Of a stretch of DNA of 64,000 bases, positions 19,906 to 34,045 are shown piece after piece. The position numbers and the translations under genes were made by a program. Every line of letters begins with the position of its first letter. Position 1 is the stretch's first letter. The DNA is from Leptolyngbya sp. PCC 6406 (GTDB lineage: Bacteria > Cyanobacteriota > Cyanobacteriia > Phormidesmidales > Phormidesmidaceae): the NCBI RefSeq assembly GCF_000332095.2, contig NZ_KI913949.1, positions 890,633 through 954,632 on the forward strand, read 5' to 3'. The notes below the pieces were generated by a model. The model was not told the DNA's origin. It did not search any database and was given only the letters and a program-made list of their open reading frames with translations.

Positions 19906-20159
19906 GTAACTTGTGTGTACACCGTGGGTATCAACGTAAGCCGAGACAATATTGGTTCCGAGGAATTCAGGAGTCAGAATCCAGTACTCTCCTAGATTTT
20001 GGCTCCTAACTCCTAACTCCTCCCCAAGAGATTTGTCCCGCTTTGAGTTGATACCCTACACCGTAGTCCACCCGGCGGGAAGCAAGCTATGCCCATTTTT
20101 GGGAGAGTCTTGTAGATGTAGATAAGGATAGGGAACATCCCATGCCTCCCCGTTTCCGA

Positions 20160-20174
20160 TAATGATTATCATTA
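20160..20174. promoter_or_regulatory. Zur box 1 (COG0523 gene 1)
   Basis: TAATGATTATCATTA is a perfect 7-1-7 inverted repeat of the Zur-box type, 42 bases before the COG0523 start. The same half-site TAATGAT is found at the other Zur-box-like sites of the island. Confidence 0.8.
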
Positions 20175-20216
20175 CAATGTAATGTAGTAATCTTTATTCT
20201 GGTTGAGGTGTTGATC

Positions 20217-21191
20217 ATGATGGCTAGTCCGACCCTAGACTCCATCCCTGTGACCGTGTTGACAGGTTACTTGGGGGCAGGCAAGACCACCCTGCTTAAC
20301 CGTATCCTCACCCACGAACATGGCAAAAAGGTCGCGGTGATCGTTAACGAGTTTGGCGAGGTAGGCATTGACAATCAGTTGGTGGTGGATGCTGATGAAG
20401 AAATTTTTGAAATGAATAACGGCTGCATCTGTTGTACCGTGCGGGGAGATTTGATCCGCATCATTGCCAACTTGATGAAACGGCGGGACAAGTTTGACCA
20501 TTTGGTCATCGAAACCACGGGGCTGGCGGATCCGGCTCCGGTGATTCAAACCTTTTTTGTGGACGACGAGGTGCAGACCCGCACCCATTTGGATGCGGTA
20601 GTGACGGTGGTGGATGCCCGCCACATTCATCAGCACTGGCAGGCGGAGGAAGCGACAGAGCAGATTGCCTTTGCTGATGTGATCTTGTTGAACAAGACCG
20701 ATCTGGTCACGCCAGAGGAGCTGACGGTTCTGGAGCAACGGATCCGGGCTATGAATGCCCTGGCAAAAATCTACTCCACGCAAAACGCCGAGGTGGAGCT
20801 AGGGGCGATTTTAGGGGTGAATGCCTTTGACCTAGATAATGCCCTTAAGGTGGATCCTGATTTTCTATCTGAAACAGCCCATGAGCATGACGATACTGTG
20901 GGCTCTCTAGCCTTAGTGGAGCCAGGGGCGGTGGATGGGGTCAAGCTGAACCAATGGCTGGGGACACTCCTGCGCGATCGCGGTCCTGACATTTTCCGCA
21001 TGAAGGGCATCCTCAATATTGCTGGGGAGGATGATCGCTATGTATTCCAGGGGGTTCACATGCTGTTTGAGGGCCGAGGCGATCGCCCTTGGCGCACCCA
21101 TGAATCCCGTAAGAATGAACTGGTGTTCATTGGCCGCAACCTAGAGGACATGAATCTGCAAGACAGCTTTCGAGCCTGCTTAGTCCCCTAA
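20217..21191 (+). CDS. COG0523 GTPase, putative zinc chaperone (1 of 3)
   Basis: A 324-residue G3E-family GTPase; the start is the ATG at 20217 with GAGGTG upstream. Seen: Walker [10 protein letters not shown] at 17-25, [12 protein letters not shown], the metal-binding GCICCT at 69-74, [10 protein letters not shown], and NKTD for guanine specificity. The C-terminal CobW domain has FRMKGIL and ends RACLVP. Related proteins (ZNG1, YciC/ZigA types) use GTP hydrolysis to deliver or hold zinc. A short acidic-His segment (ETAHEHDD) replaces the long His loop of copy 3. It is preceded by Zur box 1 and followed by a WD40 gene on the same strand, so it is probably induced by zinc shortage. Confidence 0.92.
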
Positions 21192-21221
21192 GCTCCCCCA
21201 TCGACCCTTCTACTGCCTGCC

Positions 21222-21523
21222 TTGGGCGCGGAAACCGCGCCCCTACGGGTAATTCAATTCAAAATTCAAAACTCAAAATTCCTGTCACCCCCTGCATTGG
21301 GCGCGGAAACCGCGCCCCTACCCCAAAACCCTGCATCTGGCGCGGCATCTCTGCGGTGCATTGCTTCGCGAATGCACCCTACGGGATATTTAATTCAAAA
21401 CTCAAAACTCAAAATTCCCATCACTCCCCCACCCCATCACTCCCCCACCCCACCATCCCAATACCCCATCACCCCATCACCCCAATACCCCATCACCCCC
21501 CCCACTCCCTCTCACCCAAATCC
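21222..21523. repeat. Repeat-filled spacer between COG0523 and WD40 genes
   Basis: Contains two copies of the palindrome GGGCGCGGAAACCGCGCCC (near 21222 and 21298). AATTCAAAACTCAAAATTC-type repeats follow, then a CCCCATCACCCCAATA-type tandem tract at about 21412-21510. The same modules recur at 24354-24600, 26573-26751 and 47049-47429. No gene is supported in it. Confidence 0.75.
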
Positions 21524-22674: not shown

Positions 22675-23424
22675 TTAGGCAAATCCCTGACCTCGGGAAC
22701 CATAGCGAACCGTTTTGAACGTGACTTGGTTATTAGCGGGCTGATAGAGGGTGTAGGTGGCCTGCCCCCCCTGGCGACCCACAGTGCCGACCCCCACCAC
22801 TCGGCGGGCCGTTTTACCTTGGTCTTGGGGCGGTTCATCCCCATTGAGGGTGGTAACGGTGGAGCGCAGTCCTTGGGGCTCTACCCAACAGTCAAAGGCA
22901 CTCCCCGATCGCCCGCAGAACAGGGTATTGGCATCGGCTCGAATCAGGCGATCGCACAACTGAATCGCCGGAGTCTCTGGGGTCAACTCATCCCCACAGC
23001 CCGCTGTGCTGCCATGGATGAGCAGACAGTCCAGCTCATGGAAGCCAAAGTCCAGCGATCGCACCCATTGCACCGTCTCCCGCGATATCGACTGCCAGAG
23101 AACCTGCACCGCCTCTAGGCCATACTGCGCCTGCAACTCCGGAGCATCCATCACCGCCCCTAGCCCAGCTAAGCTCAAGACCTGCTCCTCCCACCAGCCC
23201 AGGCAGATTTTGGGAGACAGTTCCCCTGGCAAGTGCGATGGCCGTAGGCCGGTCTTTGACCATCGCACCCGCTGTACCAGCGCCCCATTATCCCCCCGTA
23301 ACCCCACCACATCCCCCAGGATATAGAGGTCAGTAACGGGGTAGCGCTGTCGTTTAATATCCGCCAACACCGCCTCATAGGCCGCCAGATTACCTTCAAT
23401 ACCGCTCAAAATTGCCCAGTGCAT
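22675..23424 (-). CDS. Degenerate metallophosphatase-fold protein
   Basis: A 249-residue relative of the neighbouring phosphatase at 23537-24349, with the same fold order but an eroded metal site. The usual DxHGN motif is SGIEGN (Asp to Gly, His to Glu, residues 7-12). GDVVG is kept. The usual GN(H/W)(D/E) is GWWEE. HGS is kept. The usual GHTH is GRSG. Most metal ligands are gone, so calcineurin-type catalysis is unlikely as such; a binding or regulatory role is possible. Same strand as its paralog, 112 bases downstream, probably one transcript. Confidence 0.7.
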   Translation of the reverse strand: MHWAILSGIEGNLAAYEAVLADIKRQRYPVTDLYILGDVVGLRGDNGALVQRVRWSKTGLRPSHLPGELSPKICLGWWEEQVLSLAGLGAVMDAPELQAQYGLEAVQVLWQSISRETVQWVRSLDFGFHELDCLLIHGSTAGCGDELTPETPAIQLCDRLIRADANTLFCGRSGSAFDCWVEPQGLRSTVTTLNGDEPPQDQGKTARRVVGVGTVGRQGGQATYTLYQPANNQVTFKTVRYGSRGQGFA

Positions 23425-23536: not shown

Positions 23537-24349
23537 CTACCGCTCACACACATGGCTCGCATCCTCCGCCCGCTCAGCAAATTCCAGGCCATGGGCTAAG
23601 CGCCAAGCAAAAATCGGGGGCAAGCCTTTTTCGATGATGGCGGCACAGGTTTTCTGGTAGTCATAGGGCACCTCCCGCAGGGTGACTTCGGCATTGTCCG
23701 TGTCGTAGAGAACATAGGTGGCATTGGGGCGACCGTGGCGCGGCTCGCCGACGGAACCGGCATTGACGATCCGCTTCAGGGGGGTGGTCACGGTACGTTC
23801 CGACTGGGGGGCACCGGGCTGCTGAACGCGCACCGCCAGGGTCGCTCCCTCCAGATTCCGCACGTAGGGAACATGGGTATGGCCACAGAATAGAACATCC
23901 GCCTCCGTAGACAAGACTCGCTCTAGGGCGGCAAAGCCATCCATGGAGGGAAGCAGATACTCGTGCTGACTGTTGGGGCTGCCATGGACAAAGCAGAAGT
24001 TATCTTGCCGGAGAGCCATGGGCAACGTGGCTAGGTAGTCCCGTACCTCCGGGTGGATGGCTTGATTTGTCCATTCATGGGCTTGCTTCCCCCGTTTCTC
24101 TGCCAGTAGGGAAGGATAGCTACATTCACAGGCATTCAGCCCTTCCACAATGTCCTCATCCCAACAGCCCTGACAGGTGGGGATATCCAAGGAGCGAATC
24201 ATTTCCACCACTGCATTGGGGAAGGGGCCATAGCCCACCAGATCGCCCAGGCAATAGATCTGGTCAGCATGATGAGCGTCAATATCACTAAGCACCGTGT
24301 TCAGCGCTTCGTAGTTACCGTGGATACAGGAGATGACAGCGAGTTTCAT
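23537..24349 (-). CDS. Metallophosphatase-family protein with Cys-substituted metal site
   Basis: A 270-residue calcineurin-like phosphoesterase of the YfcE/MJ0936 type. The canonical site is partly altered: SDIHGN is SCIHGN (Cys8 for Asp, His10 kept), and GN(H/W)D is TCQGCWDED (Cys62 in the Asn position). GDLVG (Asp36), FVHGSP and FCGHTHVPY are kept. Extra cysteines sit at 59 and in ACECSY (74, 76). The protein looks functional and carefully conserved, so a thiolate-rich metal centre different from the usual Mn/Fe/Zn pair is likely; this is inference. It lies in the zinc island, upstream of its degenerate paralog. Confidence 0.8.
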   Translation of the reverse strand: MKLAVISCIHGNYEALNTVLSDIDAHHADQIYCLGDLVGYGPFPNAVVEMIRSLDIPTCQGCWDEDIVEGLNACECSYPSLLAEKRGKQAHEWTNQAIHPEVRDYLATLPMALRQDNFCFVHGSPNSQHEYLLPSMDGFAALERVLSTEADVLFCGHTHVPYVRNLEGATLAVRVQQPGAPQSERTVTTPLKRIVNAGSVGEPRHGRPNATYVLYDTDNAEVTLREVPYDYQKTCAAIIEKGLPPIFAWRLAHGLEFAERAEDASHVCER

Positions 24350-24353
24350 GGGA

Positions 24354-24620
24354 GGGGGTGATGGGGTATTGGGGTGATGGGGTATTGGGGTGATGGGGTA
24401 TTGGGGTGGTGGGGTAAATCCCGTAGGGGCAATCCCTTGTTGCCGGGTGGCCGATATTGGGGATTAGGGGTAGGGGCGCGGTTTCCGCGCCCAATGCAGG
24501 GGGTGACAGGAATTTTGAATTTTGAATTGAATTACCCGTAGGGGCGTGGTTTCCGCGCTCAATGCAGGGGGTGACAGGGGCGGGGTCGCGCCCAATGCCG
24601 CCGGGAATCGAGGGGGGAGT
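24354..24620. repeat. Tandem and palindromic repeats
   Basis: GGTGATGGGGTATTGG-type tandem repeats (24354-24415), then two copies of GTAGGGGCG(C/T)GGTTTCCGCG followed by C(C/T)CAATGCAGGG, and an AATTTTGAATTTTGAATTG tract. This is the reverse-strand version of the modules at 21222-21523. Confidence 0.8.
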
Positions 24621-24659
24621 GGTGATCTCAAATTTGCTCCAGGGCAGGGTGGGGTTGGA

Positions 24660-25409
24660 TCAAGCAGGGATCAAATTCCGGTAGTGGGCTTGGTATTGGG
24701 TCAGGAGATCATCGGGGAGGCAACTATCCAGCAGGGCGGAGACGATCGCCTCCGTGTCCAATCCCCAGCCCACAACCTCTAGGCCGCTGGGACGCTGGGG
24801 TCGCCCTTCCAACCAGGGGGCCAGGGGCAATTCGCCATACTCGCTGCCTTCTAACCCTTCGACAAAATCCACATAAAAGGCACGACCATCGGGCAATTCA
24901 ACAATGCCCTTGGCCCGTTGCACAGGGCCATAGGCTCCCTGGATAATCTCTGTCCACACCAGGTCTAAACTAGGGGGATCAAACACCCGCCCCGTTAGGG
25001 CGGTGCGCCAGAGCGGGGGCAAAGTATCTGTCTGGGTCGGGGGATGCCCTTGTCCAGGGATGACTTTATCGGCCCAGTTCTGCCAATCAGTGGGGGGATA
25101 CCCTGGGGGCAGTAGGGCAACCCGGTGGCACGGGAGAGAGGCCAAGAGGGGACTGTCTAAACTCAGGTGAAACCCCAGCTCTAGATAGACTTCGGCCTCT
25201 TGCGGTAGGTCAGCCAACACTGCTGGCATCTTGCCCTCGGGAATCACTTGCACCCAGGGGAAGCGATAGCCCAGATAGGGGGTATCAATGCCCTGGGCAC
25301 CACCGGGACAGAGGTAGTACAAGGGGCGATCGCGGTTTTTCAAAAACTGACTAATCCAGGTGGTTTTACCCGCACCGGGAGGCCCAGCAACAGCAATCAA
25401 TTGGGGCAT
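24660..25409 (-). CDS. P-loop GTPase-like protein related to COG0523, lacking the metal motif
   Basis: A 249-residue protein from the ATG at 25409 (MPQLIAVAGPPGAGKTTW). The frame is open to 25541 but that extension is Cys/His-rich junk-like sequence. Walker A GPPGAGKTT is clear at 9-17. The middle lacks the CxCC metal motif and the NKxD of COG0523. The C-terminus (QRAKGIVELPDGRAFYVDFVEG, then RPSGLEVVGWG) resembles the CobW_C domain. I read it as a shortened COG0523 relative. A Zur box lies 155 bp upstream (25564-25578), which places it in the zinc response. The function is unknown. Confidence 0.7.
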   Translation of the reverse strand: MPQLIAVAGPPGAGKTTWISQFLKNRDRPLYYLCPGGAQGIDTPYLGYRFPWVQVIPEGKMPAVLADLPQEAEVYLELGFHLSLDSPLLASLPCHRVALLPPGYPPTDWQNWADKVIPGQGHPPTQTDTLPPLWRTALTGRVFDPPSLDLVWTEIIQGAYGPVQRAKGIVELPDGRAFYVDFVEGLEGSEYGELPLAPWLEGRPQRPSGLEVVGWGLDTEAIVSALLDSCLPDDLLTQYQAHYRNLIPA

Positions 25410-25563
25410 ACAGCAACAATGGCGCGAAAGGACTGGGGAATGCACCCCAAGGAGATGCCAAGGATCGGAATCGGCGCGGTGATGATGCTGGCGAGTTGGA
25501 TTAAGCCAGCACCAATTGCAAATGACCCACCTCAATGACACCCATTAAGGGGCCGACTTAGGG

Positions 25564-25578
25564 TAATGATAATCATTC
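25564..25578. promoter_or_regulatory. Zur box 2 (P-loop gene)
   Basis: TAATGATAATCATTC is a 7-1-7 inverted repeat with one mismatch to the perfect form. It lies between the P-loop gene and the end of znuB, and could control the P-loop gene and the phosphatase genes behind it. Confidence 0.7.
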
Positions 25579-25732
25579 TCGCATCTTTTCCGGCTTGGAG
25601 CAACGTCCCTGGGAATGATGACAGGGAGAAATGGCCATAGCCTCACAATGTCTGTCCGGCTATGGCCTCAGGTAGTCAGCCCACCTGTCCCCTGTCTCCT
25701 CTTCCACAAGCTATTTTGCTATGACAGCTTTG

Positions 25733-26572
25733 CTATGCCAGCAGAGCTTTGGCCCTGGGTAAACCAGCGGCCAGGAGAAAGAAGCCCAGTTGAACCACAA
25801 CAATACTGGGGCCGGAGGGCAGGTCGAAGGCAGCAGATAACAAAATGCCCCCCAGGGCACTGACTGCCCCTAGGGCCGTGGAGAGCAGCACATAGTGGGT
25901 GAAGTGCTGACTGAGTAAGCGGGCGGCACAGGCGGGAATAACCACAAAGGCACTGACCAGCAGTACCCCAATCGCCTTGATCGACACCCCCACTACCAGG
26001 GACAGCAACACAATGAACATAGCCCGATGAGTCGGTACCGCTACACCTCGGGCAATAGCCAAGGATTCATTTAGGGTCAGGAGTAATTGCGATCGCAACG
26101 TCAGCCCCAAAAACACCACACAGATCACCAGCAAGCCACTGCTCAAGAGCAGATCCCCTTGACGCACCGCCAAAATATCCCCAAACAAAATGTTGTTGAT
26201 GCCCCCTTTGTAGCGCCCCACAAAGCTGAGGGTAATCACCCCAAGGGCCAGGGAAGAGGAGTAAATGATATTTAGCAGCGCATCGGTCCAAAGGTTAGTG
26301 CGCTCTAAGAAGTAGTTCACCACCAGGGCAAAGAAAACAGCAAAGGGGAGGAGCACCGTGGAGGGATTCATCCCCACTAGCAGCCCCAAGCTAATACCCA
26401 ACAGGGCTGAGTGGCCTAGGGCATCGCTGAAAAAGGACAATTGCCGCAAAATTGTCAGGCTACCCAGCATTCCCCCCATCAACCCCGTCAAGACTCCCCC
26501 CATCAGCGCCCGTTGCATAAAGGGGAGTTGCAGAAGTTCCAGGATGCGGGTGAGTTCGGTGGCGAGGGACAT
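25733..26572 (-). CDS. znuB: Zinc ABC transporter permease ZnuB
   Basis: A 279-residue inner-membrane permease from the ATG at 26572. Seven to nine hydrophobic segments are visible, with the family motifs QRALMGGVLTGLMGGMLGS, FFSDALGHSALLGI and VGVSIKAIGVLLVSAFVVIPAC typical of the ABC-3 (Zn/Mn) permease family. It pairs with ZnuC (26752-27516) and the binding protein ZnuA (27735-28931) in the same direction. The 180 bases before it are repeats. It forms the membrane channel that takes zinc from ZnuA into the cell. Confidence 0.93.
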   Translation of the reverse strand: MSLATELTRILELLQLPFMQRALMGGVLTGLMGGMLGSLTILRQLSFFSDALGHSALLGISLGLLVGMNPSTVLLPFAVFFALVVNYFLERTNLWTDALLNIIYSSSLALGVITLSFVGRYKGGINNILFGDILAVRQGDLLLSSGLLVICVVFLGLTLRSQLLLTLNESLAIARGVAVPTHRAMFIVLLSLVVGVSIKAIGVLLVSAFVVIPACAARLLSQHFTHYVLLSTALGAVSALGGILLSAAFDLPSGPSIVVVQLGFFLLAAGLPRAKALLA

Positions 26573-26751
26573 GGGGTGGTGGGGTGTGAGGGTGGTGGGG
26601 TGTGAGGGTGATGGGGTAGGGGCGCAGTTTCCGCGCCCAATGCAGGATGTCACCGTAGAGGTACGGTTTGCGCACCCAATGCAGGATATTGAATTCAAAA
26701 CTCAAAATTCAAAACTCAAAACTCCTAAAACCTCTCACCCTCCCCCCTCAA
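26573..26751. repeat. Repeat block between znuC and znuB
   Basis: Holds GGTGGTGGGGTGTGAGG tandem units, two copies of the GTAGGGGCG...GCGCCCAATGCAGGAT palindrome (one degraded) and the AATTCAAAACTCAAAATTC tract. The zinc transporter operon has been invaded by the same repeat family seen elsewhere in the island. Confidence 0.75.
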
Positions 26752-27516
26752 CTAATGGGTATGGCGATAGCGGACAAACTCTGACCCATAGGCCAAAGCC
26801 AGTTGCTCTGGGGCTAGGGCGACATCAGGCGAGCCCTGGCAGAGTAGACGACGATTCATGCAAATAACGCGATCGCAGTGGCGGCGTACCATGTCTAGGT
26901 CATGGGAAATCTGGATAATGGCCCAGCCCTCTTGCCGTTTCAGGTCATAGAGCAACTGATAAAACTCCGACTCCCCCCGCACATCCAATCCTGCCGGGGC
27001 TTCGTCCAAAATCAACAGCTTTCGGGGTTGTGCCAGACAATAGGCCAGCAGCACCCGCTTGGTTTCCCCCCCAGATAATCCCCGAATAGATTGGGTGGCT
27101 AGGTGCAGAGCATCCACCCGCGCCAAGGCTTGACGTACTGCCCGCCGTCGAGCTTGACGCTGCCCCCAAGGCAACTGCGGCCCCATCCGATCCCAGCCCA
27201 GGCCCACCAACTCTTCCACCACTAGGGGAATGCGGCGGTCAAACAAAAATCGCTGGGGTAGATAGGCCACTTGGTCACGGATGCGGGCAGACAGTGCCCC
27301 CTGACGACCCAAGGGTTGCCCCAAGATCCACACCTGCCCCCTCTGTCGGGGCAAGATTCCCAGCAGGGCTTGAATCAACGTGCTTTTACCCGCCCCATTG
27401 GGGCCAACAATGGCGGTATCGGTACCTGCTTCGAGACTAAAGGACATGTCCTCAACGGCCACATAGTTACCATGGCAAACCGTTAGCCCCATCACTGCCA
27501 ATATCGGATCTGACAA
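26752..27516 (-). CDS. znuC: Zinc ABC transporter ATPase ZnuC
   Basis: A 254-residue ABC ATPase. Walker A is GPNGAGKST, the Q-loop LPQRF, the ABC signature LSGGETKR, Walker B LLILDEAPAGLD and the switch His in ISHDLDM. It powers zinc import by ZnuB. It is 218 bases downstream of znuA, a gap filled by a repeat (GTTGGGTTCCGCTAGCGCTG) with no Zur box, so transcription probably comes from the znuA promoter. Confidence 0.93.
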   Translation of the reverse strand: MSDPILAVMGLTVCHGNYVAVEDMSFSLEAGTDTAIVGPNGAGKSTLIQALLGILPRQRGQVWILGQPLGRQGALSARIRDQVAYLPQRFLFDRRIPLVVEELVGLGWDRMGPQLPWGQRQARRRAVRQALARVDALHLATQSIRGLSGGETKRVLLAYCLAQPRKLLILDEAPAGLDVRGESEFYQLLYDLKRQEGWAIIQISHDLDMVRRHCDRVICMNRRLLCQGSPDVALAPEQLALAYGSEFVRYRHTH

Positions 27517-27734
27517 AATTGACCTCCAATGGTACGGCCCAGAGGCAACCCAGCCCCTAGTGTTCCGTCAAATTTACCTTTGTGAGTCTGCGTAGATTGG
27601 GTAGAACGAAGGATCACCCAACAGTGGTGGGCCATGTTGGGTTCCGCTAGCGCTGCACCCAACCTACAAATTTAGGTTTGATAGACCACTAGAGCTGGGG
27701 TAGAGATGACTTGAATAGCAAGATGAACCCAGGG

Positions 27735-28931
27735 TCAAAACCCCAGGCCCAGCCGTTGGGGTACCGTCGCCACAGTGGGGACTCGCCGCAGTCCCGGCGC
27801 GATCGCCTGAAACCGCTGCTGGGGTAGCCACGACTGGGTTTCTCCCTCAAAGGCCGTCACCAAAGCATCCAAGTTCTGGCGCATGGCAATGAAATAATAC
27901 TCAGGTTCTAGAGCCTCTGGGCCACCGGTTTCAATGGGGTCAAAGACACTAATGGCCACCCCCAAATCCCCTGCTAGAGCTGAGAAGGAATCTTCCCCTG
28001 CTTGGGGTTCCGTCAACAGGGTTTTCAGATTCGAGGCGGTTACCGTATCCATGACCCGCTTCACATCCTCTGGAGAAGGATTGTCCTCCGGTACATCCAC
28101 CAAAAATTCCGCCTCTAGACCATAGCTTTCGGCAAAGTAGGGGGCAAAGTCATGGAAGGCCACAAAGGTTTGGCCAGCGTAGGGGGCCAAGCGCTCGGCA
28201 ATTTCCTGATCTAGAGCTTGCAGTTGCTCAATGTAAACCGCCGCATTAGCGGTGTACTCAGGTTCCCCATCGGGGTCTACCGCGATCAGACCGTCTCGAA
28301 TATTTTCGACCTGTTGCACCGCCCGCTTGGGGTCAAGCCAAATATGGGGATTGAACTCCCCATGATGATGGTGACCACCATCGGCATGGTCATGGCCGTG
28401 ATCGTCTTTATCTTCGTGGCCGTGGTCATGGCCGTGATCGTGATCATCGTGCCCGTGCCCGTGATCATCGTGCCCGTGGCCCTCTACCTCTTCATTGCTG
28501 AGGGTGGCAATGCCGATACTGGTGTCAATTACCACGAGGTCAGCATTATCAGCATTGGCAATTAAGTCATCTAGAAAAAACTCCATTTCTAGGCCGTTTT
28601 TCACCAGCACATCAGCAGTGACTAGAGCCTGGGCATCGGTCGGCTTGGCCTGGTAGTCGTGGGGGCCAACATTCGCGGGAATCAGTTGCACCACCTCAGC
28701 GCGATCGCCCACCACCGCCTTGGTGAACTGGGTAATGGGCAGAAAGGTAGTCACCACCTGGATTTCTGAGGTTGGAGTCGTTGCCACTTCCGCGTCTGGA
28801 TCTCCTTCCGTCACTGTGGAAGGAGCACAACTCCCCAAGGCAAAGGTCAGGGAAGAAGCGGTGAACAATAGACCCCGACGCACCTGGGGCTGGAAATTCC
28901 AAGGAAAAGCAAAAGGGCGTAGCGGTAGCAT
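27735..28931 (-). CDS. znuA: Zinc-binding lipoprotein ZnuA
   Basis: A 398-residue cluster A-I solute-binding protein. I chose the ATG at 28931 (MLPLRPFAFPW) because the alternative at 28973 lies inside Zur box 3. A signal peptide ends in the lipobox-like ALGSC, so it is probably lipid-anchored at the plasma membrane. Metal-ligand regions are NVGPHDYQ, HIWLDPKRA and FVAFHDFAPYF, and a loop very rich in His and Asp follows EVEGHGHDD (about 45 residues), as in zinc-specific ZnuA proteins. Two Zur-type boxes precede it. Confidence 0.95.
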   Translation of the reverse strand: MLPLRPFAFPWNFQPQVRRGLLFTASSLTFALGSCAPSTVTEGDPDAEVATTPTSEIQVVTTFLPITQFTKAVVGDRAEVVQLIPANVGPHDYQAKPTDAQALVTADVLVKNGLEMEFFLDDLIANADNADLVVIDTSIGIATLSNEEVEGHGHDDHGHGHDDHDHGHDHGHEDKDDHGHDHADGGHHHHGEFNPHIWLDPKRAVQQVENIRDGLIAVDPDGEPEYTANAAVYIEQLQALDQEIAERLAPYAGQTFVAFHDFAPYFAESYGLEAEFLVDVPEDNPSPEDVKRVMDTVTASNLKTLLTEPQAGEDSFSALAGDLGVAISVFDPIETGGPEALEPEYYFIAMRQNLDALVTAFEGETQSWLPQQRFQAIAPGLRRVPTVATVPQRLGLGF

Positions 28932-28960
28932 ATCGAAGTGGCTCCCAGAAGTCTTATTGA

Positions 28961-28975
28961 GAATAATTATCATTA
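28961..28975. promoter_or_regulatory. Zur box 3 (znuA, proximal)
   Basis: GAATAATTATCATTA, a 7-1-7 inverted repeat with two mismatches, 30 bases before the znuA start. It overlaps an in-frame ATG that was therefore rejected as the start. Confidence 0.75.
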
Positions 28976-29045: not shown

Positions 29046-30143
<1,098 letters not shown>

Positions 30144-30173
30144 TCACAAAAGATAAGGTAGGATAAAAGATGA

Positions 30174-30188
30174 TAATGATTATCGTTC
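30174..30188. promoter_or_regulatory. Zur box 5 (hemB/zur divergent promoter)
   Basis: TAATGATTATCGTTC, one perfect and one imperfect half-site in 7-1-7 form, 40 bases from hemB and 24 bases from zur. It is well placed to repress both directions, giving zur autoregulation. Confidence 0.8.
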
Positions 30189-30211
30189 TTGGAATTCTAC
30201 CGTATCTCGTC

Positions 30212-30649
30212 ATGAACGGTGACTCTGTCCAGTCCAATTCCCATCCACTGCCTGAACTGGGCAGTACTGATACCCTCACGGACAATCAAGCCTTGGTGTT
30301 AACGCTCCTGGGTCAACAGTCCATAGCCCTCTCGGCCCAAGAGCTTCATGCCCTGATCCAAGAGCAGCGTCCCATAGGGCTGGCAACGGTATACCGTGCC
30401 CTGGATACCCTCAACCTCTTAGGGCTGATCCAGCGCCGGGTGGGTCAGCGGGGCGAGTCTTTCTACAGTGTGGCCAGCCCAGAACAGTCCCACTTGACCT
30501 GTCTCCGCTGTGGCCATTCCTTGCCGGTTGTCTTGGGTCTAGAGCCGGAGTGGGCCGCTCAGCTTAACCGAGTTGGGATGTTTCAGATCTACTACTACAC
30601 CTTGGAGTTTTTTGGGCTCTGCGACTCCTGTTCCCCTTCCCAAAATTGA
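30212..30649 (+). CDS. zur: Zinc uptake regulator Zur (Fur family)
   Basis: A 145-residue Fur-family repressor; start at the ATG at 30212, since earlier codons run through the Zur box. The winged-helix domain has SAQELHALIQEQ and GLATVYRALDTLNLLGLIQR, the family DNA-recognition helix. The structural zinc pairs are CLRCG and CDSC near the C-terminus; SHLTC carries a conserved His. Its genomic setting with znuABC, hemB and COG0523 genes identifies it as Zur rather than Fur or PerR. It probably heads a plus-strand operon with hisI, the CcmM-like gene and further genes to 35353. Confidence 0.93.
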   Translation: MNGDSVQSNSHPLPELGSTDTLTDNQALVLTLLGQQSIALSAQELHALIQEQRPIGLATVYRALDTLNLLGLIQRRVGQRGESFYSVASPEQSHLTCLRCGHSLPVVLGLEPEWAAQLNRVGMFQIYYYTLEFFGLCDSCSPSQN

Positions 30650-30726
30650 GTTCCAGCCCTCTGAATGATGAATGCTTGACCGCGCCAAGATTTGCAGAAA
30701 CCTTGAACAAGAGAAATGAAACCACC

Positions 30727-31227
30727 ATGGATCGAGAGCGTATGGTTGCCCAATTTGCTGTCCGTGCTTCAGTAGAAGCGGTGGAGGAAGGGGTTTGGTT
30801 AGCGCCCAAGTTTGATGCTGAGGGTTTGATTCCCGTCGTCACCACTGATGCAAAGTCGGGAGAAGTGCTGATGCAGGGCTATATGAATGCGGCAGCGCTG
30901 CTGCGGACGATTGCCACGAGAGAAGCCCACTATTACAGTCGCAGTCGCCAGACCTTATGGCACAAAGGGGCTACCAGTGGGTTAGTGCAGCGGGTACAGC
31001 AGTGTCTGATTGATGATGATCAAGACTGTATATGGTTGCGGGTGACGATAGCAGGGTCGGGGGCAAGTTGCCATGTGGGGTATCGCTCCTGCTTCTATCG
31101 CCAAATCCCTCTAGGTTCGATGGTGATTAGACCGGGAGTAGTCATTCCTCTCACCTTTACGGAAACGGCCAAGGTTTTTGACCCCCAGGCTGTTTATGGT
31201 GATGCTCCTAATCCGACGCGACTCTAA
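30727..31227 (+). CDS. hisI: Phosphoribosyl-AMP cyclohydrolase HisI paralog with altered zinc site
   Basis: A 166-residue enzyme opening the adenine ring of PR-AMP, step 3 of histidine synthesis. The start is the ATG at 30727. Seen: VLMQGYMNAAAL, HYYSRSRQTLWHKGATSG, then the metal region. Known HisI proteins bind catalytic zinc with three Cys, the first in DCDxD. Here that segment is IDDDQDC, so the first Cys is Asp97, while Cys115 (SCHVG) and Cys122 (RSCFY) are kept and an extra Cys101 appears. It is not fused to HisE. HisI paralogs beside COG0523 genes are known from cyanobacterial low-zinc clusters; a lower zinc need is inferred. Confidence 0.92.
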   Translation: MDRERMVAQFAVRASVEAVEEGVWLAPKFDAEGLIPVVTTDAKSGEVLMQGYMNAAALLRTIATREAHYYSRSRQTLWHKGATSGLVQRVQQCLIDDDQDCIWLRVTIAGSGASCHVGYRSCFYRQIPLGSMVIRPGVVIPLTFTETAKVFDPQAVYGDAPNPTRL

Positions 31228-31242
31228 GGGGAACCGATTACT

Positions 31243-32181
31243 ATGCCTTTGCATCATCAATCTGCTCCCCCTACCCCTTGGGATCGGGACTTAGAACAGC
31301 CTCAAATTCAGGATACTGACTATATCCATCCCCAAGCTAGTCTGATTGGAGATGTGCGCTTGGGGCCAAATATTCTCATCGCACCGGGAACTTCAATTCG
31401 GGCGGATGAGGGAGCACCCTTTTTCATCGGGGCCAATACTAATATTCAGGATGGCGTCGTCATCCACGGCTTAGAACAGGGCCGGGTTATGGGGGATGAT
31501 CACCAGCTTTATTCTGTATGGGTGGGGGCAAACACTTGTATTACCCATCTGGCCCTAATCCATGGCCCTGCCTATGTGGGAAATGACTGTTTTATTGGCT
31601 TCCGCTCTACGATTTTCAATGCCAAGGTGGGCCATGGCTGCATCGTGATGATGCATGTCTTAATTCAGGATGTGGAGATTCCACCTGGTAAATATGTGCC
31701 TTCGGGGGCGGTGATCACCACTCAACAGGCGGCAGATCGCTTGTCGGATGCCAATAGCAGTGATCGCGAATTTTCTTCCCATGTGGTGCAGGTTAACCAA
31801 GCTCTGCGGATGGGATACCAATGTGCCGCCGATAGAGTGTGCTTGGCCGCGATGGTAGCAGCCCACCCGCATCATGAGACCGTTCCTCCTTCTCCTTCTA
31901 TCCCTGGCCATTCCACTCTAGTTCTGGGGCCGGAGGTGATGGCACAGGTGCGATCGCAATTGCACCAAGGTCACCGCATTGCCCTGGAATATACAGACCC
32001 CCGCCGTTTCAAAGTTGGCTCCTGGCAGGATGGCCCCATCATCCCATTTCACGAAGAAGCTCAAGTACTAGCTGCCCTGCAACAATTTCTCATCAATCAC
32101 CCCCACCACCATGTTCGGCTACTGGGAATTGATCCCAAAGTCCGTCAACGACATCTAGAACTAATGCTTCAATCCCCCTAA
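31243..32181 (+). CDS. CcmM-like gamma-carbonic anhydrase with one SSUL domain
   Basis: A 312-residue protein 15 bases after hisI. Residues ~25-200 are the left-handed beta-helix gamma-carbonic anhydrase domain, as in carboxysome protein CcmM, with the metal histidines His75, His102 and His107 ([13 protein letters not shown]). The CcmM disulfide cysteines are at 194 and 200 (YQCAADRVC). After a short linker, residues ~228-312 form a Rubisco small-subunit-like domain ([27 protein letters not shown]). Standard CcmM has three or more such domains and sits in the ccm operon; this copy has one and lies in the zinc island. It could be a carbonic anhydrase for zinc shortage that still docks on Rubisco. 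Confidence 0.88.
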
Positions 32182-32258: not shown

Positions 32259-33251
32259 ATGGACTTCCTATCCATTCCTAAACAGGGGCTCCCTGTCACT
32301 ATCATCACTGGCTTTCTGGGCAGTGGAAAAACCACGCTGCTGAATCATGTTCTTGCCAATATTTCAGGGGTAAAGGTGGCGGTTTTAGTTAACGAATTTG
32401 GAGCCATCAATATTGATAGCCAACTGTTGCTATCCGTGGAGGAAAACACTATTCAACTGAGTAATGGTTGTATTTGCTGCACGATCAATGACAGTCTGAT
32501 CGATGCTGTCTATAGCGTATTAGAACGGGAGGAGCGATTTGATTACTTGATTGTAGAAACCACGGGTTTGGCTGATCCTTTGCCGATTATGATGACATTT
32601 TTAACCACCGAGCTAAAAGCCCTGACCAACCTAGATGCAGTGATTACAGTCGTTGATACAGAAGCCTTTACCCCAGCTCATTTTGAAAGTGAAGTTGCTC
32701 TGCGACAGTTACTCTACGGAGATATCATCCTTCTCAATAAAATTGACCTAGCGGCTCCAGAACAGATCACAGATCTGGAAAATTATCTCTACGACTGTAA
32801 GGAAGGAGTTAGATTTCTGCCCTGCTCCCTCACTGAAACTCCAAATTCATTAAGCTTGTCTGCCTTACTAGATATTGGCCCCACCCTAGAACCTCGTGCC
32901 TTGGTCAACCCGATTCCGGCTCCAGAGACCTTTGGGCGAGAATATCGAGAAGATTTTACTACGGTAAGTTTCCAGAGTGATCGTCCTTTTGATCTCACCA
33001 AGTTTGAGCATTTTCTGATGACCCAAATGCCCATAACGGTTTTCCGCGCCAAGGGGCTGCTGTGGTTTCAGGGGGAACCCCAGGGTTATGTCTTTCAGCT
33101 CAGCGGCAAGCGTTGTCGTCTGACCCCAGATATTCCCACCTTGCATGGTGTTATTCAACTGGTACTAATCGGTCGTCAACTTAATCCATTACAACTCAAT
33201 CAGCAACTCACCAATTGTTTAGCCGGAGACCGTGTGCCGCTGCTGCGATGA
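32259..33251 (+). CDS. COG0523 GTPase, putative zinc chaperone (2 of 3)
   Basis: A 330-residue G3E GTPase from the ATG at 32259. Walker [10 protein letters not shown] at 18-26, [11 protein letters not shown], metal motif GCICCT at 70-75, [10 protein letters not shown], and NKID. The CobW C-terminal domain has [10 protein letters not shown]. No His-rich loop. It is closer in sequence to copy 3 (34214-35353) than to copy 1. It lies between the CcmM-like gene and folE in a plus-strand run starting at zur. Confidence 0.92.
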
Positions 33252-33326
33252 TGCCCACCCTTTCATGGGGCGTATCGGCTAAACCAAAGTTGGCTCTGGG
33301 CCTTGTTATTACAGACCCATCCATCC

Positions 33327-33346
33327 CCTGCACCCTAGGGTGCAGG
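33327..33346. repeat. Perfect 20-bp palindrome before folE
   Basis: CCTGCACCCTAGGGTGCAGG is a perfect palindrome 60 bases upstream of the folE start and 76 bases after the COG0523 stop. It has no T-run, so it could be an operator, a processing hairpin or a repeat. Confidence 0.6.
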
Positions 33347-33406
33347 TTGTTCTGGGGGTACTTCCTCCATTTTCCCTTGTTGTTATTGTCGTTAGGACTG
33401 TTGTTA

Positions 33407-34045
33407 ATGACCCTTTCCATTTCCCGCGAAGATATGCGTACTGGTATCCTTAAGACCGAATCTGAGGCTCCAGTGTCCGATGCCGAAATGCGGCAGGCGG
33501 TGCGAACCCTGCTGCTAGGGTTGGGAGAAGATCCCGATCGCGAAGGATTGCGGGATACCCCCAAGCGCGTAGTCAATGCCCTCAAATTTTTGACCTCCGG
33601 GTACCATCAGTCCCTAGATGAGTTACTCAACGGGGCCGTATTTCACGAAGACACTAATGAAATGGTGTTGGTGCGAGACATTGACTTATTTAGCTCCTGT
33701 GAACACCACATTTTGCCTATTATTGGCCGTGTCCATGTGGCCTATATTCCCAATGGCAAGGTGATTGGTTTGTCAAAAATCGCCCGCATTTGTGAAATGT
33801 ATGCCCGCCGTCTGCAAGTACAGGAACGGCTTACCGCTCAAATTGCTGATGCGGTGGAAGGGTTACTGAAGCCCCAAGGGGTGGCGGTTGTGGTAGAAGC
33901 TGCCCACATGTGTATGGCCATGCGGGGAGTGCAAAAACCTGGCTCTTGGACTGCCAGTAGTGCGATGCGGGGCGTCTTTGCGGATGATCCTAAAACCCGT
34001 CAGGAGTTCATGAGCTTGATTCACCATGCTCCGACCTTTCATTAA
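33407..34045 (+). CDS. folE: GTP cyclohydrolase I FolE, zinc-type
   Basis: A 212-residue type IA GTP cyclohydrolase making dihydroneopterin triphosphate for folate and pterins. I chose the ATG at 33407 (MTLSISRED). The zinc ligands of the family are present: Cys98 and His101 in SSCEHH and Cys169 in [10 protein letters not shown]. So this copy is the zinc-dependent form, unlike the zinc-independent FolE2 found in some low-zinc regulons. It lies between two COG0523 genes, which suggests it may be a chaperone client. Whether a second folE exists elsewhere is unknown. Confidence 0.94.

Follow-up and report, generated by a model that had tools for sequence, protein, structure and literature searches.

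A calcineurin-like phosphoesterase with cysteines at two metal-ligand positions, linked to a COG0523-like protein in cyanobacterial zinc-starvation loci

Calcineurin-like metallophosphoesterases (MPEs) hold their metals with a set of ligands that we take to be the Asp and His of a DxH motif, the Asp of GDxxG, the Asn of GNxD, the His of HGS, and both His of GHTH. The Asn contacts phosphate, and its replacement should harm hydrolysis. One branch of the fold is found in arsenic (ars) operons: Car1, an MPE of Rufibacter tibetensis that acts as an arsenate reductase, is reportedly coupled to thioredoxin and is said to use a mechanism that involves a C74-C76 disulfide. Both C74 and C76 of Car1 are reported to be essential (PMC12124457). 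COG0523 GTPases such as YjiA combine a P-loop and a CobW_C domain and occur in a zinc-starvation context, and it has long been asked which proteins they serve. In this work, we describe a cyanobacterial locus in which a COG0523-like protein is linked to an MPE with two of its metal ligands replaced by cysteines. The locus lies in a 64,000-nucleotide stretch of the genome of Leptolyngbya sp. PCC 6406, the whole of which we call the window. The MPE, named Cys-MPE, and its most relevant codons are as follows:

23537..24349, minus strand (read from 24349 to 23537): Cys-MPE, calcineurin-like metallophosphoesterase of 270 amino acids
24326-24328: codon of C8, which replaces the Asp of DxH
24164-24166: codon of C62, which replaces the Asn of GN(H/Y)D
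24122-24130: codons of C74 and C76
23546-23548: codon of C268, in the C-terminal tail

Cys-MPE belongs to the calcineurin-like MPE fold family. It matches the Pfam models Metallophos_2 (PF12850; 83 bits, cut-off 27) and Metallophos (PF00149; 44.8 bits, cut-off 21.5), and it matches PDB entry 3rqz from Sphaerobacter both by sequence (E 7e-30) and in a Foldseek search with the predicted fold (E 3.7e-20). The nearest solved folds are MPEs and include the Ap4A hydrolase SapH (3qfm); Cys-MPE differs from such MPEs in having Cys for the DxH Asp and the GNxD Asn. An earlier sequence-only reading of the window had placed cysteines at positions 8, 59, 62, 74, and 76 beside an otherwise intact frame, and indeed we find these five residues there, together with H10, D36, H122 of HGS, and H157/H159 of GHTH. 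In the AlphaFold model, pLDDT falls below 50 at residues 64-80 and 257-270, the parts that bear C74/C76 and C268. Both might become ordered once a metal is bound, which is a guess.

The cysteines are strictly conserved. A first ortholog set, made of the best 80 of 212 and aligned with the window protein (81 rows), has C8, C62, C74, C76, C155, and C268 in every row. One of the six peptides used in that scan contained CQGC, a possible source of selection bias, and as a control we ran a whole-protein search, independent of this peptide, over 194 genomes of the phylum. Matches of at least 60% identity were found in 41 genomes (the other matches listed reach at most 42%) and retained the cysteines. 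In the pooled set of 120 unique Cys-MPE sequences, the window's own included and with identities down to 60%, the same six cysteines are invariant, as are H10, D36, D64, H122, H157, and H159; overall, 79 of the 270 positions do not vary. The lower end of the range includes three members with 60-64% identity, from genomes of 1.8, 1.9, and 2.9 Mb. Other cysteines are less fixed: C33 is present in 118 of the 120 sequences, C235 in 115, C59 in 101, and C119 in 69. The strict conservation expected by the sequence-only reading was therefore borne out for C8, C62, C74, and C76 but not for C59, which we dropped as a ligand; the reading had also left out C155 and C268, as constant as C8, and the nearly constant C33. 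Neither C33 nor C155 was retained as distinctive, both being common in ordinary MPEs as well.

Could Cys-MPE be a decaying pseudo-enzyme whose cysteines have no role? The loss of two canonical ligands fits such a view, but the replacements and all of the other ligands are conserved in 120/120 sequences, and the adjoining paralog MPE2, described below, illustrates what ligand loss looks like in this family. We regard decay as highly improbable: with C8, C62, and the five remaining ligands invariant throughout, the pattern is the product of neither chance nor decay. Nor does Cys-MPE look like an ordinary phosphatase: two canonical ligands of the binuclear site, the DxH Asp and the GN(H/Y)D Asn, are missing from every member.

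To place these changes among MPEs, we tabulated ligand and cysteine positions in 44 rows, comprising 14 Cys-MPEs and 24 relatives outside both the Cys-MPE and the MPE2 groups (8 from plasmid ars or ars-like loci, 7 others from plasmids, 5 belonging to a different class of the phylum, the MPEs of loci L127 and L128, and two from viral contigs). C8 and C62 are present in 14/14 Cys-MPE rows, whereas the 24 relatives have N62 without exception and D8 in all but one (L128, with G8). The ligands H10, D36, H122, H157, and H159 also occur in the ordinary relatives tabulated. A search for the Cys form in phages and viral contigs returned one distant phage match and the two viral-contig relatives, the latter with D8/N62. 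The exceptional MPE (L128, 934-1647) comes from a cyanobacterial genome in the same family as the window. It lacks DxH (GPY) and GHTH (THTG) while keeping GNYD and CGC, and appears from its motifs to be a second route to an altered MPE site.

The distribution of C74-x-C76 is different. Of the 24 relatives, L128 and all but one of the 8 ars-type proteins have this motif, and the rest do not. Across the N-terminal half, it aligns without gaps between Cys-MPE and an ars-operon MPE; the Adhaeribacter protein shares 37% identity with Cys-MPE. An ars context is annotated for the relatives from Adhaeribacter (arsM, ACR3) and Paraclostridium (ArsR, arsM), and also for those from Rubrobacter tropicus, Mucilaginibacter, R. 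radiotolerans, and Pontibacter; in Hymenobacter, an ArsR-type regulator is nearby. In a Mucilaginibacter ars operon with two MPEs in tandem (L140, 3759-4493), the first has CxC and the second SxS. Thus, C74/C76 is a pair shared with ars-operon MPEs and no cyanobacterial novelty, and by analogy with Car1 it probably has a redox function. The earlier proposal, if it takes the nearby cysteine cluster as one new metal site, is not supported in this respect, and the part of the set that is reported to be essential for the redox reaction of Car1 suggests redox chemistry rather than metal storage. The derived changes that mark the cyanobacterial form are, judging from the alignments, C8, C62, and the tail C268: the ars-operon MPEs tabulated, among which the Car1 sequence itself does not figure, have D8/N62, lack C268, and sit in ars operons, while Cys-MPE has the three cysteines and sits in a zinc operon.

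These similarities raise the possibility that Cys-MPE works mainly by thiol redox chemistry, as Car1 does: C74/C76 would reduce an oxyanion or disulfide and form a disulfide themselves, to be reset by thioredoxin, with C8 and C62 as extra redox or substrate thiols and the metal secondary. The gapless alignment, the six invariant cysteines, and the essential role reported for both residues in Car1 (PMC12124457) all point this way. However, the genomic context is one of zinc, and the five invariant His/Asp ligands would be needless in a thiol-only enzyme. The tree does not recover a supported clade of Cys-MPE with the ars MPEs, and the AU test does not reject such a clade (p 0.461). The tree joins Cys-MPE to MPE2 with support of 100/100, but the MPE2 branch is long (2.84). 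We consider a mainly thiol-based enzyme unlikely, if worth keeping in mind. Among the annotated neighbors of Cys-MPE there are zinc-island genes and no ars genes; for loci L001-L080, the search covered relatives of window proteins. In this locus, zinc starvation is joined to an MPE branch with the same cysteine pair as an arsenate reductase.

Cys-MPE is flanked by two conserved partners:

24660..25409, minus strand: CobWC, COG0523-like P-loop protein (GPPGAGKTTW) with a CobW_C domain and no CxCC
22675..23424, minus strand: MPE2, degenerate paralog with SGIEGN, GWWEEQ, and HGS kept, and GRSG in place of GHTH

The listed CobWC reading frame extends to 25541; its likely start is the ATG at 25409. 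The P-loop residues G12, G14, K15, and T16 are invariant, and at a threshold of E 0.01 the CobW_C domain is recognized in 46 of the 52 proteins, the window member scoring 21.4 bits, just under the cut-off of 22. Of the PDB matches to the CobWC model (pLDDT 92) with E below 0.001, all are to YjiA, two of the three entries being zinc bound. CobWC nevertheless differs from YjiA-type COG0523 proteins: it is shorter, the alignment of its members contains no conserved CxCC zinc motif, the cobW nucleotide-binding model matches only 7 of the 52, and the overall match to YjiA is weak (TM score of 0.33 on the query). The window MPE2 has no match in Pfam or NCBIfam. Over 103 rows, MPE2 proteins have G at the position of D8, E (once K) at that of H10, W, A, or L at that of N62, and GRSG (once AHST) at GHTH, with the His of HGS kept in 103/103; such a residue pattern makes MPE2 a probable pseudo-enzyme partner. 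It is reminiscent of the archaeal PH1004 / Pfu-1218608 proteins (PDB IDs 2gju and 1nnw), which have the MPE fold and altered start ligands (ANIAGN).

The three genes form a module of fixed order. CobWC is directly upstream of Cys-MPE on the same strand in 80/80 loci, with a median overlap of 4 nt and a distance within 200 nt in 74 of them. MPE2 is on the same strand as Cys-MPE in 71 of the 80, at most 1,000 nt downstream in 67; of the nine loci without it, five reach a contig end within 400 nt, and in the other four (L013, L016, L019, and L078) MPE2 is missing despite room on the contig. No fusion of CobWC with MPE or of MPE with MPE2 exists in the 80 loci; an apparent 658-amino-acid fusion frame in G129 proved to be an ordinary MPE2 of 240 amino acids. 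Of the 194 genomes searched above, 41 have Cys-MPE, 43 CobWC, 44 MPE2, and 41 all three (in G187, the CobWC match is about 19 kb from Cys-MPE). The three genes are nearly always either retained together or lost together, and the absence of the module from 153 of the 194 genomes indicates that it is dispensable.

Five CobWC or MPE2 matches fall outside complete modules, of which four are fragments, and G005 has CobWC alone. In G080 (C73:41036-41840), a 134-amino-acid CobWC frame runs into a piece of MPE2; G139 (C1:1163352-1163747) has a piece of MPE2 in a 170-amino-acid frame with a stop, and G145 (C1:3128070-3128411) one in a 127-amino-acid frame. None of these three genomes has Cys-MPE, and their sequences look as if the module had decayed as a unit.

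A broken module may also account for published expression data. In Picosynechococcus PCC 7002, plasmid pAQ7 (L161, 23717-25488) carries a CobWC reduced to its first 147 residues and an MPE2 reduced to its last 130, with Cys-MPE absent and an unrelated ORF between them; in PCC 7117 and PCC 73109, the same stretch is whole. In published RNA data, hemB-II, folE-II, G0131, and G0132 of PCC 7002 are upregulated in a zur mutant and with TPEN, while G0129 (a phosphoesterase) and G0130 are not upregulated in the mutant (PMC4628125). We equated G0129-G0131 with the module genes by their order, not by a locus tag table, which makes G0131 the CobWC remnant. On this reading, the promoter in PCC 7002 would still respond to Zur, while the part behind the break would not, and the broken copy would explain why the Zur cluster of this popular laboratory strain has an unexpected gap. 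Since PCC 7002 has lost Cys-MPE, the published response bears on the promoter and not on Cys-MPE.

The surroundings of the module in the window are those of a zinc-starvation island:

20208..21191, plus strand: CxCC-bearing COG0523 GTPase, preceded by a Zur-box-like site (20157-20171)
25561..25581: pair of Zur-box-like sites that overlap each other, in front of the CobWC-MPE-MPE2 operon (3 and 2 mismatches to TGATAATNATTATCA)
25733..28973, minus strand: zinc ABC transporter (ZnuB, ZnuC, ZnuA-like), the ZnuA-like subunit assigned by NCBIfam, ZnuB and ZnuC by ORF and position
29046..30143, minus strand: HemB paralog, second copy elsewhere, 57% identical
30170..30649, plus strand: FUR-family regulator, probably Zur, with a Zur-box-like site at 30171-30185
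30646..31227, plus strand: HisI paralog, second copy elsewhere, 45% identical
33215..34045, plus strand: FolE paralog, second copy elsewhere, 70% identical

The island has three COG0523-type GTPases, two recognized by profile and a third (32259-33251) from its ORF. The placement of Cys-MPE in such an island, among a zinc transporter, a FUR-family regulator, COG0523 proteins, second HemB, FolE, and HisI copies, and Zur-box-like sites, agrees with the sequence-only reading, which had overlooked that CobWC and MPE2 are its linked partners. Since the start listed for the FUR-family gene lies under the Zur-box-like site at 30171-30185, translation probably begins deeper in the reading frame, near MNGDSVQ.

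Our scans used TGATAATNATTATCA, a consensus that we take to represent the Zur box. The window contains nine sites with at most three mismatches, with 1.46 expected and none of 100 shuffles reaching nine. Across the module loci, the region upstream of CobWC could be scanned in 77 of the 80 (L002, L059, and L066, which lack upstream sequence, were dropped). A site with at most two mismatches is present in 45/77 loci versus 5/1,536 shuffles, and one with at most three in 59/77 versus 54/1,536; coding controls, taken after the CobWC match, gave 0/77 and 6/77, respectively. Of the 18 loci that lack a box at three mismatches or fewer, 13 are, by our reading, closely preceded on the same strand by another gene of the zinc island or of the module. 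As for the marine-type loci L120 and L121, we recognized no zinc gene when reading through the listed ORFs. L120 has a three-mismatch box immediately ahead of CobWC (one or more matches of this quality also arise in 40 of 200 shuffles of the locus), and L121 has none directly before CobWC. Judging by these sites, the CobWC-MPE-MPE2 operon is apparently under Zur control and switched on when zinc is low.

Two further roles are conceivable. Cys-MPE could be an MPE hydrolase, acting on a nucleotide or phosphodiester, whose two ligands were exchanged to retain zinc at very low concentrations. It would then resemble the second HemB, FolE, and HisI copies of the island, and H10, D36, H122, H157, and H159 are intact, with MPEs, SapH included, as the nearest solved folds. 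Against this, the loss of the Asn should impair hydrolysis, and the host genome holds no ordinary close paralog that Cys-MPE might replace, its paralogs being MPE2 and one weak match; we find the hydrolase rather unlikely. The sequence-only reading had named a zinc store or sensor among its options; Cys-MPE would then have no catalysis, and a cysteine-rich site in a Zur-box-linked operon would suit that role. Yet a store made only at low zinc would be of little use, Cys-MPE has no DNA-binding or output domain through which a sensor might act, and its conservation far exceeds that of CobWC (mean column identity of 81% versus 41%), which suggests a defined active site. A store or sensor therefore seems quite improbable to us.

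We tentatively prefer another explanation, in which the module is Zur repressed and made when zinc is scarce. Cys-MPE keeps the five His/Asp ligands of the binuclear site, and C8 and C62 would stand in for the Asp and Asn that were lost. The resulting site, with thiolate, His, and Asp ligands, should bind zinc or some other thiophilic metal with higher affinity than the site of an ordinary MPE. CobWC would load or unload this site in a nucleotide-dependent manner, and MPE2, with most of its ligands lost, may be a structural partner or scaffold. Beside the site, C74/C76 would act as a redox pair as in Car1, serving either a reductive reaction or the oxidative release of the metal. The parts of this proposal are not equally secure. 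A contact between CobWC and Cys-MPE is the part in which we have the most confidence and seems fairly likely; metal binding by C8 and C62 in vivo is also fairly likely, if a little less so; and redox activity of C74/C76, argued from Car1, is somewhat favored. The complete chain, a Zur-controlled and GTPase-served thiolate metal site with a redox cysteine pair, is less probable than any of these, and we would put it at rather below an even chance. Several points count against it: making a high-affinity zinc site during zinc starvation could be wasteful, the matches of CobWC to YjiA overall and to the cobW nucleotide-binding model are both weak, the AlphaFold model has low confidence at just the residues of interest, and the four loci without MPE2, the 18 without a box, and the many genomes without the module also weigh on this side.

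A bolder version, which we hold to be unlikely, is a zinc-allocation machine in which the thiols of a CxCC-type motif are supplied by a separate, rebuilt MPE and gated by C74/C76. If true, it would couple metal transfer to both nucleotide and the cellular redox state, and to our knowledge, its site would be the first thiolate-ligated one in the calcineurin-like superfamily. The fold, the ligand frame, and the CxC motif are already known. In the open-access papers that we searched, we found no calcineurin-like site with cysteines at two ligand places that is fixed in a clade and linked to a COG0523-like protein, and the one paper among them that we saw to mention the locus is the PCC 7002 study (PMC4628125). 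Across much of the cyanobacterial class, CobWC lacks the zinc motif and goes with a single candidate partner in a nearly all-or-none manner, and the invariant cysteines of the latter make the partner, the metal, and the redox role directly testable.

Some minor features of the loci deserve mention. In the window, CobWC and Cys-MPE, which overlap in most relatives, are parted by 310 nt; this gap (24350-24660) and that at 21220-21520 are occupied by short repeats of the GGGTGATGGGGTATTG and GGGCGCGGTTTCCGCGCC types. In L020 (6090-7060), a second, partial CobWC-MPE copy is located directly upstream of the whole copy. Finally, the zinc island of the window includes, at 31243-32181 on the plus strand, a short CcmM-like protein made of a gamma carbonic anhydrase part and one RbcS-like domain.
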